A stretch of 64,000 nucleotides of DNA. Origin: Kyrpidia tusciae DSM 2912 (GTDB lineage Bacteria > Bacillota > Bacilli > Kyrpidiales > Kyrpidiaceae). The stretch is taken from the NCBI RefSeq assembly GCF_000092905.1, contig NC_014098.1, positions 2,356,001-2,420,000 on the forward strand. Direction: 5' to 3'. The translations under genes and the position numbers were made by a program. Of the stretch, positions 84 to 56,428 are shown one piece after another. How positions within the stretch are numbered: position 1 is the stretch's first letter; the number at the start of each line of letters is the position of its first letter. The notes beneath the pieces are model-generated. The model was not told the DNA's origin and ran no database searches. It saw only the letters and a program-made list of their open reading frames with translations.

Positions 84-923
84 ATGATGGAAGCAAAAGT
101 GGAACAGGGCGTCTTTGAAACGATCGGCGGTTACCGCACTCATTACCATGAGGCGGGTGCGGGTGAAGGAAAGCCTCTGCTGCTGATCCATGGTTCCGGC
201 CCGGGCGTTTCTGCATGGGCGAATTGGCGCCTGGTTTTTCCTTTACTTGCCGATGATTTCCAGTTGTACGCACCGGATCTCGTGGGATTTGGACAAACGG
301 AAAAACCGCGCATCACCTATTCGGTGGATGTCTGGGTCGATCATCTGATCGCATTCATCGAACAGAAAAATCTTGCACCCGTTTCGATTATCGGAAATTC
401 TTTGGGTGGGGCGTTGGCCTTACACATTGCCCACCGGCGTCCGGAATGGATTGACAAGTTAATCCTCATGGGGAGCGCCGGCATCCGATTCCAATTGACC
501 GAAGGCTTGGACAAAGTCTGGGGCTACGAGCCAAGTTTGGAGAACATGCGAAATTTAATTCGGATCTTCGCCTATGATCAAACGATGGCTGAAAAAGACG
601 ACCTGGTCGAAATGAGGTACAAAGCGAGTATCCAGGAAGGGGCTCACGAATCCTACGCGTCCATGTTTCCGGCACCGCGTCAGCGATGGGTGGACGAGCT
701 TTCTTTAAGTGAAGAAGCGTTGCGAAGTATAGACAAACCGACATTATTGATCCACGGACGCGAAGATCGCGTATTGCCGGTTGCCGAAACCAGCTGGCGA
801 TTGGCACAACTGTTGCCCCGGGCCGAATTTCACATGTTCTCGCAATGCGGACATTGGACACAGATTGAAAAGACAGAGGCCTTTTGTCGGTTGGTCAAAC
901 ATTTTCTAAAAAACAATGGATGA
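84..923 (+). CDS. Alpha/beta hydrolase, meta-cleavage-product type
   Basis: Alpha/beta-hydrolase-fold enzyme of 279 residues. The oxyanion-hole region HGSGPGVSAW and the nucleophile elbow GNSLGGALA (serine) are seen, with an acid in HGREDRVLP and the catalytic histidine in QCGHWTQIE. The HGSGPG plus GNSLGG pair is typical of C-C hydrolases acting on meta-cleavage products such as 2-hydroxymuconic semialdehyde (XylF/BphD/MhpC group). That role fits the two extradiol dioxygenases on the opposite strand, but the substrate is inferred. A GTG at 72 is in frame, but the purine-rich GTGAGG sits correctly for the ATG at 84. The gene is convergent with the molybdenum hydroxylase operon. Confidence 0.85.
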   Translation: MMEAKVEQGVFETIGGYRTHYHEAGAGEGKPLLLIHGSGPGVSAWANWRLVFPLLADDFQLYAPDLVGFGQTEKPRITYSVDVWVDHLIAFIEQKNLAPVSIIGNSLGGALALHIAHRRPEWIDKLILMGSAGIRFQLTEGLDKVWGYEPSLENMRNLIRIFAYDQTMAEKDDLVEMRYKASIQEGAHESYASMFPAPRQRWVDELSLSEEALRSIDKPTLLIHGREDRVLPVAETSWRLAQLLPRAEFHMFSQCGHWTQIEKTEAFCRLVKHFLKNNG

Positions 924-994
924 CGAGGACCCCGGGCCGCACCTTTCGCACCTTTGCACATGTGGCTGCGACGCGCCGCCCGTGGGCCCGGCGG

Positions 995-5642: not shown

Positions 5643-6488
5643 TCAAGTCCCATCCAGAAGTTCCGGAATGCGTGAGGTAACCGCCTGGATATCCAGAAAT
5701 TCTTTGATCACGCAACCGATCGTCCGGTGAATCCACGCCTCGCTCCATCGGCCGTCCAACTCGAAGGCCCGGGCCCAGTCCAGCGTCTCGGCCACCCCCG
5801 GCGGTTTGAGGAGATCCCAGCCCCGCAGCATCTGCACCGCGCGCACGATTCTCCTGACTGCTTCGTCCTCTAATCCGGGGATTTGTTTGCGGACGATGGC
5901 GCACTCCCGCTCAGGGTCCGGCCAGTCGACATAGGTGTAGAGTGACCGTCGCCGCAACGCGTCGCTGAGGGGCCGGGTTCGGTTCGAGGTCAGGAAGACA
6001 ACCGGGGGCTCCCGGGCGGTCACCGTGCCCCATTCCGGCACGGTGATCCGGTAGTCGGCAAGAACCTCGAGCAACAGCGCCTCAAATCCCTCATCCGCCC
6101 GATCCACTTCATCGATCAATAACACGCAGCCGCCCGAACTCCGCAAGGCCCGCATCAACGGGCGCTCCAACAGATACGCCTCGGTGAACACGTTCTGCGC
6201 ATCCCCGCGGGCGAGATCGACCATCTGCTTGTGATAATTCCAGTCGTACAGCGCCTGGCTGGCATCTAATCCTTCGAAACACTGCAGCCGGACCAACGGT
6301 TTTTGTAAGGCCCGGGCAACGGCGTCTGCCAGGGACGTTTTCCCGGAACCCGCGGGGCCTTCCAACAAAAGGGGGCGCTCAAGAGCAACCGCCAGCCTCA
6401 CCATGCCGGCCAGACTTTCGTCGGCCACATATCCCGCCTGCTCCAACATCCGCATCCAGTCCCCCGGCGACCGATCCTTCGGCGACAA
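5643..6488 (-). CDS. MoxR-family AAA+ ATPase, CoxD-like
   Basis: AAA+ ATPase of about 281 residues in the MoxR/CoxD group. Walker A is GPAGSGKTS, Walker B is LLIDEVDRAD, sensor 1 is FLTSNRTRPLSDALRRR, and a C-terminal lid domain follows. With the VWA partner downstream it is expected to remodel the apo-molybdenum hydroxylase and help insert the sulfido ligand. A TTG at 6488 lies 8 bases after GGGGAG; a GTG at 6497 abuts the same purines and is the alternative. A decayed second copy of the middle of this gene lies at about 20478-20612. Confidence 0.88.
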   Translation of the reverse strand: MSPKDRSPGDWMRMLEQAGYVADESLAGMVRLAVALERPLLLEGPAGSGKTSLADAVARALQKPLVRLQCFEGLDASQALYDWNYHKQMVDLARGDAQNVFTEAYLLERPLMRALRSSGGCVLLIDEVDRADEGFEALLLEVLADYRITVPEWGTVTAREPPVVFLTSNRTRPLSDALRRRSLYTYVDWPDPERECAIVRKQIPGLEDEAVRRIVRAVQMLRGWDLLKPPGVAETLDWARAFELDGRWSEAWIHRTIGCVIKEFLDIQAVTSRIPELLDGT

Positions 6489-6658
6489 CGCGGTCACTCC
6501 CCGTTTCGACCCTTTAGATGGCGAAATACCCGATCCACCCCAATCGCCGCATCGCGATGGATTCTAAGGCAATTTTCCCGATGCTTACATTCAATTCGAC
6601 ACATCGCCTTCCGATTCCTGCTGTCGCACATGCAAGCCCCGGGGAGCACATGTCCGCA

Positions 6659-20612: not shown

Positions 20613-20863
20613 GGGTTCGCTTTTCGTTCTTCACGACATGCAAAGGCTTACAGTGTTCATTGACGCCCATCCCGCCTTTTGACGATATGGGCAAAGGGAT
20701 GTGCGTGTGACAGAGGGAGTAAGGGAAACCAAATAGCAAAAATCCGTGTCATTCGACAAATCGGCAGGAATTATGACGACCCGCGTCGAATTAATACCAG
20801 CGGTTTTGCGTTTTGCGCCGGAGCGAACCGGTTGATTTAGTTAAGCCGAGAGGAGGAGACTCG

Positions 20864-21937
20864 TTGCGCCGACGTATGCTTACGGCAATCGTCGCAGGGT
20901 GTTTATTCACCGGCATCGCACTGCCTGCGGCCCAAGCGGAGTGGATTACCCCTTACCAACCACCCGCCGGACTTCGGGACTTAACCAATCAATCCCATAC
21001 CTTGCAGACACAGATCCAGCAGCTGCAAGGCCAAGCGAACGATACACAAAGACAGATTGCGAGCTTACAAGACCAGTTGGTGAATTTGGACGCCCGGATT
21101 GCGGATACTGCGCAGGAATTGACCGCCGCAGAGAAGCAGCTCCAGGTTCAGCAAGACTTGCTGAACAAGAGGCTACGGGCCATGTACGAGGACGGCACGG
21201 TCAGCTACCTGGAGGTACTTCTCTCATCCACCAGTTTCAGCGATTTTGTCGACCGGATGTACGCACTCTCGAGGATCGCCATGCAGAATCGGCAGATTTT
21301 CGACGAGACCAAAAAGAAGCTGGACGAGGTTCAAGCTCTGAAAAGAGACCTCGAAAGCCAAAAGCAACAGCAACAGTTGGCCCTCATGAACTTGTCGGAC
21401 GCCTTGCGGAAACTTGTAGCTGAGAAACAACGTCGCGAGAATCAACTCGGACAAGTACAGCGGCAACTCTCCCAGCAATCGGCCCCCGGGGCAGTCTATG
21501 CCATGGTCGGTCCGGGTCGGGCTTCGTGGAGCGGGGGAGCAGCAGCGCCGAGCCTTTCCGCCCGGGGATTGACGTCCATCCCCCAAGCCGCGATGGCATA
21601 CATAGGAAACTCTTACGTCTTTGGAGGAGCAAGCCCCCAGACCAGCTTCGATTGTTCCGGCCTCGTTCAGTGGGTGTATGGGCAATCGGGCATCGGTTTG
21701 CCGAGAACAGCCCAAGGGCAGTACAACGCCACCCAACACATCGGAGAGGGCCAGGCCCAGCCCGGGGACTTGGTGTTTTTCACCGGGACCTACGACGCGT
21801 CCGACACCGTCACCCACGTCGGGATTTACCTCGGCAACGGCCAAATGCTGAGCGCGGACAATGCGGGAGTGGGCGTTCGCTCGATTACGTCGGGATATTG
21901 GCGCGACCATCTGTACGGATTCGGGCGGGTGCGCTGA
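20864..21937 (+). CDS. Secreted NlpC/P60 peptidoglycan hydrolase with coiled coil
   Basis: Exported cell-wall endopeptidase of 357 residues. A signal peptide (RRRMLTAIVAG ... PAAQA) is followed by a long coiled coil (about residues 30-220), as in PcsB/CwlO-type hydrolases that are gated by FtsEX. The C-terminal NlpC/P60 domain has the catalytic cysteine in FDCSGLVQW and histidine in VTHVGIYLG. TTG at 20864 is chosen because AGGAGGAGA precedes it; an internal ATG at 20876 is possible. It should cut stem peptides during cell elongation or division. It is monocistronic with a strong terminator. Confidence 0.9.
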   Translation: MRRRMLTAIVAGCLFTGIALPAAQAEWITPYQPPAGLRDLTNQSHTLQTQIQQLQGQANDTQRQIASLQDQLVNLDARIADTAQELTAAEKQLQVQQDLLNKRLRAMYEDGTVSYLEVLLSSTSFSDFVDRMYALSRIAMQNRQIFDETKKKLDEVQALKRDLESQKQQQQLALMNLSDALRKLVAEKQRRENQLGQVQRQLSQQSAPGAVYAMVGPGRASWSGGAAAPSLSARGLTSIPQAAMAYIGNSYVFGGASPQTSFDCSGLVQWVYGQSGIGLPRTAQGQYNATQHIGEGQAQPGDLVFFTGTYDASDTVTHVGIYLGNGQMLSADNAGVGVRSITSGYWRDHLYGFGRVR

Positions 21938-53633: not shown

Positions 53634-55211
53634 TCACCTGTCCCATCCTGTTCCGCCTTGTTTCAACCACCGGTACAGCGTGCTTCGGGAAACCCCAAGC
53701 CGCCGGGCGGCTGCGGACACATTGCCGCGGGTGCTCTGAAGGGCGTCTGCCACTGCCTCCTTGCGACTGGGGATACTCCTTCCGGGCATTGCCCCGGTTC
53801 TATGTTCAGCGTCCAGAAAAGAAGCCAACCCCTCGGGACCGATGATCGGCGAATCATCAAAAACGGACGCACAAACTATAACATTCCGTAGTTCACGTAT
53901 ATTTCCTCTCCACGGGTAGTCCTGGAGCAGGCGCAATGCGGCGGGATTCAATTTTTTGCCCGTACCGGTCGTATCCAGCAAATACTGCGCCAAATCAGGG
54001 ATGTCCTCCTTCCGCTCCCGCAGCGGCGGAACGTGAATCGGAAGGACATGAAGGCGGTGAAACAAATCTTCCCGAAACGCCCCCTGGCGAACGAGTAACC
54101 CAAGATCCCGGTGTGTAGCAGAGACCAGCCGGACATCCACCGGGATCTCCTCCCGGCCGCCAATCGGTCGAACCGCCTTTTCTTCAAGGACTCGAAGCAG
54201 GGCGAGCTGCATTTGTGGGGGCATCTCCCCGACCTCGTCCAGGAACAAAGTTCCTCCTTCAGCAAGCCGAAAAGCCCCGGGATATCCCCCTTTTTTGGCA
54301 CCGGTGAAAGCACCCTCCTCATAGCCAAATAATTCACTTTCCAGGAGATGTTCAGGCATCCCCCCGCAGTTGAGGGCCACAAAGGGGCCACCTCTTCGGC
54401 CGCTTCTCCGGTGGATCCATCGCGCAAGGAGTTCTTTGCCCGTCCCCGTCTCTCCCAAGAGGCAAACCGGATAATCCACCCGGGCCGCCCGTTCGGCCAA
54501 GTCGATACACCTGCGGAAGGATACGCTTTTGCCGATCATCCCCTCAAAATCAACTCCCACTTCCCGGGACTCCACCGCTCCATCCCCCTGTTGGGGCATC
54601 CGAGCGATGACGTCCTCCACGTGGGCTCCCATGGTCGCCACGACGCCCAGGAGATAGGGGTGGGCCGATTCCAGCGGGCCAGATAAATTCAACACACCAA
54701 AAACGTTTCCCTTCGGGTCGCGGAGAGGCACGGCAGCGCAGCACCAGGGGTGCGTCGCCACCACGTAATGCTCGTACCCCGCCACGTAGACAGCGTTTCC
54801 GACCTCCAGCGCTGTTCCGATCGCATTGGTGCCCACCGCCGCCTCCGACCAGTCAGCCCCCGGAACAAACTGGATCTCCCGGGCCCTTCGAAGGGTGTCC
54901 GGATGACCGATCTCGCTCAGGATTCGTCCATCCGCATCACAGAATAAAGCGACCATCCGCTGCTCCATCAATAAACCGTGAATTTTATGTAACAAGGATT
55001 CAACTTCTCGAATCGGGTCAGCGTATTTGTGACGCTGCAACTCTAAATCCTCCGGCTCCAGCACAATGTCTCCGCGGTCCCGGTATGGATCCACCCCGTA
55101 GCGCCGGCTTCGCACCCACGACTCGCACACGTCCCTGGATACGCGGTGGGCGTCCAGCGTCCCCTCCCGCACAAACCTTTTCCAGGTTCGATACAACAAG
55201 GGCATCTCCAT
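53634..55211 (-). CDS. acoR: Sigma-54-dependent activator AcoR
   Basis: Bacterial enhancer-binding protein of 525 residues. An N-terminal GAF-type sensor (about 60-200) with [20 protein letters not shown] is followed by an AAA+ domain with Walker [12 protein letters not shown], the sigma-54 contact loop [11 protein letters not shown] and Walker [10 protein letters not shown]. The C-terminal Fis-type helix-turn-helix is [21 protein letters not shown]. It activates acoABC when acetoin is present. ATG at 55211 or two codons later is likely. It lies just upstream of the sigma-54 promoter in the same direction. Confidence 0.92.
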
Positions 55212-55508
55212 CCTGCCCGTCCCCCCGTTCCGTTCCGCCGGACTCGTCCCCGGCACAATTGCTCGGCCACCAAGAACAAAAAATCCTCCGGATGCCTTTT
55301 GGCGGCCCGGGCACCGGACGACGACGTCCGCGTCCGACGGGCCAACCCGGCATCCCGGAGGCCATTGATGAGGCGATACTGAAACCGAACCAACGAGATC
55401 GACACTGAGCCATCGGAAGTTGACATCGTGGGCAAAGGGTGGTCAACACACAGGATAAGCATTGGGAGAGAAATCGCGCCCGTAGAAAAGGGCACGCACA
55501 AGCCTGCA
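55212..55508. other. Gap of about 300 bases upstream of acoR
   Basis: No convincing gene. A minus-strand frame from ATG 55426 ([20 protein letters not shown]) looks mildly protein-like but has no ribosome binding site and runs into acoR. The terminator of the upstream DUF3055 gene lies at 55475-55496. The acoR promoter must be here, but no clear -35/-10 pair was found. Confidence 0.5.
55475..55496 (-). terminator. Probable terminator after the DUF3055 gene
   Basis: Minus-strand CGTGCCC / GGGCGCG stem (one G-U pair) with an 8-base loop, followed by ATTTCTC. It ends the riboswitch-controlled transcript. Confidence 0.55.
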
Positions 55509-55802
55509 TCAGAATTGCTCGCCTCGTGGCGGATAGGACAAAACGCTCGTGAGGTAATGGCCCAATTCGGTGGCCGTTTCGCCGTCGTCAATTCCAAAAT
55601 GCTGGGCCACCCGCTGCGGATCTTCGGCATCGTGGGCGTCCATGATGCTCGCCCGCCCGGTCTGTAGGCACATCACAATGCTCTTGCCCATAAAATGTTG
55701 GGAATACGTCACTGCCAGATCGAATCGCGTGCCGGCCACATCCAACGTGGCAAAATGAGTTCGGGTATCTTCCGTTTCTGAAAACAAAACGTGCTCACCC
55801 AT
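55509..55802 (-). CDS. DUF3055-family protein
   Basis: Cytoplasmic protein of 97 residues in the DUF3055 family of Bacilli: TRTHFATLDVAGTRFDLAVTY, HFMGKSIVMCLQTGRASIM and ELGHYLTSVLSY follow the family pattern. Function is unknown. GGGGGGATCGAGGA precedes the ATG. It starts 17 bases after the small ORF and therefore lies in the transcript headed by the c-di-AMP riboswitch. Confidence 0.8.
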   Translation of the reverse strand: MGEHVLFSETEDTRTHFATLDVAGTRFDLAVTYSQHFMGKSIVMCLQTGRASIMDAHDAEDPQRVAQHFGIDDGETATELGHYLTSVLSYPPRGEQF

Positions 55803-55819
55803 TCCTCGATCCCCCCTTG

Positions 55820-55960
55820 TCAATGTCTGATGCGCGGAAGGTACCCGACGTTTTGCACGCCTTTGACTTTGCCATAGCGTGTGGCAATCCGGCGCGCCTC
55901 ATACACGGTACTGCTTCGCGAACGGAGACGCCACGGGGTGGTGGGGAGCCGCAGGGACAC
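55820..55960 (-). CDS. Small basic ORF under riboswitch control
   Basis: Not recognised. The 46-residue product is strongly basic (SLRLPTTPWRLRSRSSTVYE, ARRIATRYGKVKGVQNVGYL) with no membrane segment. Its GTG start stands five Ts after AGGCGGGG. That purine run is both the only possible ribosome binding site and the 3' arm of the terminator hairpin, so hairpin formation would stop both transcription and translation. It could also be the tail of a lost larger gene. Confidence 0.5.
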   Translation of the reverse strand: MSLRLPTTPWRLRSRSSTVYEARRIATRYGKVKGVQNVGYLPRIRH

Positions 55961-55965
55961 AAAAA

Positions 55966-55998
55966 CCCCGCCTATGAGAAGTCCTTGGCCAGGCGGGG
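55966..55998 (-). terminator. Expression-platform terminator of the c-di-AMP riboswitch
   Basis: Minus-strand CCCCGCCT / AGGCGGGG stem with a 17-base loop, followed by TTTTTG. It lies about 20 bases after the aptamer, the normal place for riboswitch-controlled termination. Confidence 0.85.
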
Positions 55999-56014
55999 CT
56001 TTCGCCACCGCTCC

Positions 56015-56168
56015 CTCCAACGCTTGCGAAGTTAGCTGACGGGTTCGGGTGGAGAGCTCACCCTACCGAGCGGATGAAACATTCTCAAATCTTCTGAGAA
56101 CAGCCCGCCCGGATTCACCCCACACATGGGTCCTCCGCTTCCACTGGACATGGAACTCAGCGTCTCCG
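56015..56168 (-). ncRNA. Cyclic di-AMP riboswitch (ydaO/yuaA class)
   Basis: The minus-strand transcript contains the conserved blocks in order: GGAGGACCCATGTGTGGGG, GGGGTGAATCC, CGGTAGGGTGAG, CCACCCGAACCCGTCAGC, and TCAGCTAACTTCGCAAGCG. The closing stem is ACGCT (56163-56159) with AGCGT (56024-56020). These match the ydaO class, which binds two c-di-AMP molecules and switches genes off. The usual targets are cell-wall hydrolases and potassium transporters; here a short ORF and a DUF3055 gene follow. Confidence 0.92.
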
Positions 56169-56176
56169 TTTTCACC

Positions 56177-56205
56177 ATCATACATGAAAAAGGGAATTTT
56201 GGCAA
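56177..56205 (-). promoter_or_regulatory. Promoter of the riboswitch transcript
   Basis: Minus-strand TTGCCA (-35), 17-base spacer, TATGAT (-10). The predicted start at about 56170 coincides with the 5' edge of the aptamer. Confidence 0.75.
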
Positions 56206-56248
56206 TGAGCGATTCGTTCACAATACGTTCACGCAAGGGGGAAGCGTC

Positions 56249-56428
56249 ATGCATCCGATACCCGCAGTCCTTCTCTCACTGGCCGTCGCCCTCGGGGCAG
56301 GCTGGTTCCTCGGAGTGCCCTTATGGATTGCCCTTATGATCGGCGCAGGTTCCATTGCCGGGGCCGCCGTCCTTCGCTCCGTCTACCACGGAGTCGAACG
56401 CCGCTTCCGGAGCCTCAACCGGCGGTGA
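56249..56428 (+). CDS. Small two-helix membrane protein
   Basis: Not recognised. The 59-residue protein consists of two hydrophobic helices (AVLLSLAVALGAGWFLGV and LWIALMIGAGSIAGAAVL) and a basic tail. GGGGGAAGCGTC before the ATG supports translation. It is divergent from the riboswitch transcript and convergent with the peroxiredoxin gene. Confidence 0.6.
   Translation: MHPIPAVLLSLAVALGAGWFLGVPLWIALMIGAGSIAGAAVLRSVYHGVERRFRSLNRR

Follow-up and report, generated by a model that had tools for sequence, protein, structure and literature searches.

A riboswitch is among the most direct clues to the regulon of a gene. The published targets of c-di-AMP riboswitches are potassium, amino-acid and osmolyte transporters and proteins of the cell wall or of the osmotic stress response (PMC7266159, PMC9960051, PMC3766115). 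In the reviewed mechanism of this class, c-di-AMP promotes termination (PMC9960051, PMC5575661), and the ligand acts in the same direction on the kdpFABC switch of Bacillus thuringiensis BMB171 (PMC6488665). One review states that the ydaO switch was not found in Staphylococcus (PMC5575661).

We analyzed a 64-kb window of the Kyrpidia genome G000 (3,384,766 bases), the window being the whole stretch C1:2356001-2420000, and found on its minus strand a c-di-AMP riboswitch upstream of a gene for a DUF3055 protein. The putative sigma-A-type promoter (56177..56205) consists of TTGCCA (56205-56200), a 17-nt spacer and TATGAT (56182-56177), with 10 of 12 matches; 0.2 such sites are expected per shuffle. 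It is followed by the aptamer (ydaO/yuaA, RF00379; 56006..56172), which in a scan of the 64 kb matched the Rfam model with 89.9 bits (E 9.6e-20), far above the gathering score of 38. The match is complete (model positions 1-134 of 134), all base pairs of the model are standard, and an alignment of 25 aptamers, this one included, contains 38 invariant columns. As a riboswitch it is an unexceptional representative of a known RNA class. The intrinsic terminator (55961..56002) is a hairpin, GCCCCGCCT...AGGCGGGG, at about 56002-55966 with a folding energy of -20.2 kcal/mol, directly followed by a T5 tract; the consensus terminator scanner overlooked it because the hairpin loop is long. The earlier note, made from the letters of the window, had read a complete promoter, ydaO-class aptamer and terminator here, and the covariance model confirms the aptamer. 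The genome G000 contains two further RF00379 elements, and each Kyrpidia genome has two genes for diadenylate cyclases (DAC domain, PF02457), so the ligand is made by the host.

Three Kyrpidia genomes were compared: G000, the near-identical G003 and the diverged G002. The arrangement of promoter, aptamer, terminator and DUF3055 gene is present in all three, and these parts, their order and their conservation were established by computation. Between G000 and G002 the promoter is identical at 29 of 29 positions, although only 53% of the 17 bases directly before it agree; identity is 87.7% for the aptamer and 76.1% for the terminator. The terminator stem of G002 is built of other base pairs (TCGCCT/AGGCGA core) with the pairing kept. 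One competing hairpin, which would engage the 3' side of P1, is predicted for G000 and not for G002; the coupling of aptamer and terminator through it is thus an unproven prediction for G000. On the opposite side of the promoter lies a divergent ORF for a small membrane protein of 61 aa (56243-56428, plus strand), apparently conserved in G002, whose 5' flank overlaps, in antisense, the DNA of the riboswitch.

The gene downstream (55509..55802, minus strand) starts with ATG at 55802, is preceded by a Shine-Dalgarno run GGGGGG (55816-55811) and encodes a DUF3055/SAV0927-like protein of 97 aa. As the earlier note had proposed, it belongs to DUF3055 (PF11256): profile positions 1-79 of 80 are matched with 100.5 bits (E 6.1e-29; cut-off 25). 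The G002 protein is 88% identical, and the substitutions between G000 and G002 fall on the three codon positions as 7/7/34 of 98 each, with no gaps, a pattern of purifying selection. An AlphaFold2 model (pLDDT 80) matches the PDB entries 6iy0 and 8xfu with Z-scores of 11.0 and 10.5 (rmsd 1.9 A over 79 residues), and the next best unrelated structure reaches 5.4. Matches beyond these two Staphylococcus aureus entries, at Z about 5, are probably just common arrangements and were rejected as a guide to function. DUF3055 occurs in 142 of 200 genomes sampled from the class (about 70%), and our search of the open literature turned up no paper on its function. The genes generally adjoining other DUF3055 loci (HepT-like, DUF1885, radical-SAM and HAD genes) gave no functional clue. 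Downstream of DUF3055 in the window lies an intact gene for a sigma-54-type, AcoR-like activator (53634-55256, minus strand), which adjoins genes for dehydrogenase E1 subunits; in G002 (L017:4756-5437, minus strand) this activator gene appears broken, and a PilZ-domain gene follows instead.

The terminator and the start codon of DUF3055 are separated by an untranslated linker of about 158-160 nt (55803..55960, minus strand). A precedent for so distant a terminator is the kdp switch of B. thuringiensis, whose terminator lies 143 bp before the start codon (PMC6488665). The linker contains a 46-codon ORF (55960-55820), which the earlier note had regarded as a basic peptide and the first ORF behind the switch. 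Its frame is open in G000 and in the near-identical G003, and small ORFs also lie between switch and DUF3055 in two other genomes (49 aa in G067, a 90-codon frame in G037), as would suit a leader peptide or small protein on which the switch actually acts first. We consider this very improbable. Between G000 and G002 the substitutions in the ORF are spread over the codon positions as 10/11/9 of about 43 each, the alignment needs gaps in 13 columns, and the G002 sequence yields this peptide in none of its frames, frame 0 containing a stop. This flat pattern and the indels and stop that break the frame in G002 are the grounds on which we judge the ORF not to be a gene. Moreover, the ORF has no Pfam or NCBIfam match, and the small ORFs of G067 and G037 resemble by eye neither each other nor that of Kyrpidia. 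On this comparison of sequences, the 46-residue ORF is most simply a chance open frame that plays no part.

The linker itself folds no better than shuffled sequences (z -0.01), contains no Rfam family up to E 10 and no Pfam or NCBIfam match, and among 61 genomes searched it has no counterpart outside Kyrpidia and no copy elsewhere. A second riboswitch, suggested by a resemblance by eye to a c-di-GMP aptamer, was rejected on the Rfam and folding results, and a remnant of a lost gene on the lack of protein-family matches and of any other copy.

The pairing of switch and DUF3055 is not limited to Kyrpidia. RF00379 aptamers were found 5' of DUF3055 genes in ten genomes from four families of one class, and this recurrence is a direct result of the genome comparison. 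In a first survey, drawn from high-scoring PF11256 members only, 105 DUF3055 loci whose upstream sequence reached 1 kb or more showed no switch outside Kyrpidia. A genus-specific pairing was nevertheless overturned by the low-scoring paralogs, a scan of which revealed same-strand aptamers upstream of DUF3055 in G037 (family f28), G053, G067 and G081 (f14), and G045 and G073 (f25). From the proteins of these nine switch-linked genomes we built the profile A8, with eight rows, one of them standing for both G000 and the near-identical G003, and ran it against 399 genomes of the class. The first nine ranks were the known linked proteins, and rank ten was a new one, from G087 (f25); an RF00379 aptamer was then found upstream of this DUF3055 gene, which had been held out of the profile. 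No switch was seen among the scanned matches ranked 11 and lower. With 56.7-118.4 bits, all seven switches outside Kyrpidia exceed the gathering score of Rfam. This is of weight because some of the aptamers were by construction part of our own model R1.

In total, 9 of 153 distinct DUF3055 proteins are switch-linked; the other 144 have no switch within about 1-1.5 kb. By a rough estimate, random placement of about three switches among about 3,300 genes (about 0.1% per gene) would lead one to expect clearly fewer than one linked case. At the other loci, 93-546 nt separate the end of the aptamer from DUF3055. An intrinsic terminator lies in between at eight of nine distinct loci, with none recognizable in G081. 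In G037, G067, G045, G073 and G087, DUF3055 has its own hairpin and T-run directly at its 3' side; in these lineages it thus forms a single-gene unit and is itself the target, as opposed to a distal gene. The linked gene of G053 (L210:2100-2390, plus strand) has no obvious start codon before the conserved N-terminus; it may be decaying or start from a rare codon. The genomes outside Kyrpidia with a linked copy carry unlinked paralogs as well, and Kyrpidia has the linked copy only. A tree of the 153 distinct proteins does not unite the nine linked ones in one clade; it puts them at three separate positions and requires no fewer than four label changes. This tree is based on 93 columns of a short protein, and the long branch of Kyrpidia meets another long branch. 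The switch was either acquired at least three times or belongs to an old pairing that was lost repeatedly, and we do not press the choice.

Several other c-di-AMP riboswitches were observed in the compared genomes. A second aptamer of G000 scores higher, at 106 bits (L018:6130-6262, minus strand; G000:C1 about 1,970,800-1,971,260; also L004, L005 and L006), and lies directly before a gene for a protein of about 100 aa (L018:5826-6128, minus strand) that has no Pfam match and was found in Kyrpidiaceae only (4 of 200 class genomes). There is no terminator before this gene, and the aptamer tail doubles as a Shine-Dalgarno site; the aptamer may act on translation, and the protein may be a second c-di-AMP target. 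Tandem RF00379 aptamers on the same strand, about 50 bp apart, occur in two genomes of one family (G038:C49:83916-84058 and 84107-84257; G139:C1:600820-600970 and 601019-601161). In G170, two switches are arranged head to head about 220 bp apart (L225:473-598, minus strand, and 818-952, plus strand), and in G067 a distance of 4.2 kb separates two switches that lie on opposite strands (L223:1997-2122, minus strand, and 6365-6511, plus strand). In G001, from the sister genus of Kyrpidia, a degenerate aptamer (L099:15862-15996, plus strand; 26 bits, below the cut-off) precedes an NlpC/P60 gene (16001-16891, plus strand), whose product has a copper-amine-oxidase-like N-terminal domain.

The earlier note had left two readings of the locus side by side: a tie of DUF3055 to c-di-AMP, or a riboswitch left behind by its original target. 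The tie is supported by the ten genomes of four families. That the switch is vestigial, a hydrolase or transporter having been lost and DUF3055 having merely become the downstream neighbor, now appears highly unlikely. It would agree with the transporters and enzymes of the wall that the class usually controls (PMC9960051, PMC7266159), and with the weak switch of G001, which stands before an NlpC/P60 gene in a genome that lacks DUF3055. However, the pairing recurs in three other families, promoter, aptamer core and re-paired terminator have been kept in the diverged G002, and the linker holds no gene remnant. None of the relatives examined shows a hydrolase or transporter in the place of DUF3055. 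The switch loci of G001 are without synteny to the window: all three share only the NlpC/P60 domain with it and no common locus, and we rejected G001 as a synteny reference. Its assembly is 79% complete, so that absence there is weak evidence. The NlpC/P60 gene of the window (20813-21937, plus strand) has no c-di-AMP element upstream, as the earlier note had stated.

Control of translation, with an incidental hairpin, would have parallels both in a c-di-AMP switch reported in Corynebacterium glutamicum (PMC9960051) and within G000 itself, where another RF00379 aptamer (L001) lies right before a start codon without a terminator. At the DUF3055 locus, by contrast, a strong hairpin with a T5 tract directly follows the aptamer and is kept with changed base pairs, and the start codon lies about 160 nt beyond the terminator. 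We regard translational control as improbable here. The locus is very probably a single-gene unit of promoter, c-di-AMP aptamer, terminator and DUF3055, most likely operating as a conventional OFF switch of the ydaO class.

By analogy with its class, the DUF3055 leader would bind c-di-AMP and respond to it by termination. At high c-di-AMP, the ligand-bound aptamer would let the terminator form and no DUF3055 would be made; at low c-di-AMP, for example in low potassium, the polymerase would read through the untranslated linker and DUF3055 would be expressed. This direction follows from the class mechanism, in which ligand binding promotes termination. The sole target of the Kyrpidia switch would be a member of a switch-linked DUF3055 subfamily, and the riboswitch class suggests for this protein a role in potassium, turgor or envelope homeostasis. 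We speculate further that the subfamily is a dedicated c-di-AMP effector, recruited at least three times or of deep ancestry, that serves the same potassium, turgor or envelope response as the classical targets; this is a tentative extension that may well prove wrong. If it is true, DUF3055 proteins of other Bacilli, including S. aureus SAV0927, may take part in this response under different regulation. Recurrence of the pairing in four families gives DUF3055 its first testable connection to a control by c-di-AMP of potassium, turgor or cell wall, and it raises a definite question, namely the job of a small protein that would be made only at low c-di-AMP.

The new element is DUF3055 as a recurrent target of c-di-AMP riboswitches, unreported in the literature we searched. 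DUF3055, SAV0927 and PF11256 are unmentioned in the searchable literature; the primary target lists (Block 2010, Nelson 2013) lay outside that search, and a prior listing there is possible. Compared with described members of RF00379, the Kyrpidia switch is typical in its full-length aptamer with standard pairs throughout, its position in the 5'-UTR and its intrinsic terminator as expression platform, and atypical in its target, as DUF3055 takes the place of a wall enzyme or of a transporter for potassium, osmolytes or amino acids. The nlpC switch of C. glutamicum shares the aptamer class; unlike the Kyrpidia switch, it has no terminator, is thought to act on translation and controls an NlpC/P60 peptidase (PMC9960051). 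The protein has the same Pfam family and, by its predicted model, the same fold as S. aureus SAV0927 (6iy0, 8xfu; 24% identity), but it represents a diverged subfamily with a C-terminal tail. As, according to the review, the ydaO switch was not found in Staphylococcus, control of SAV0927 there must differ. The kdpFABC switch of B. thuringiensis BMB171 (PMC6488665) is similar in layout, with an aptamer followed by an intrinsic terminator that precedes the start codon by about 140 nt; it controls an operon for a potassium transporter, whereas the Kyrpidia unit encodes one small protein.
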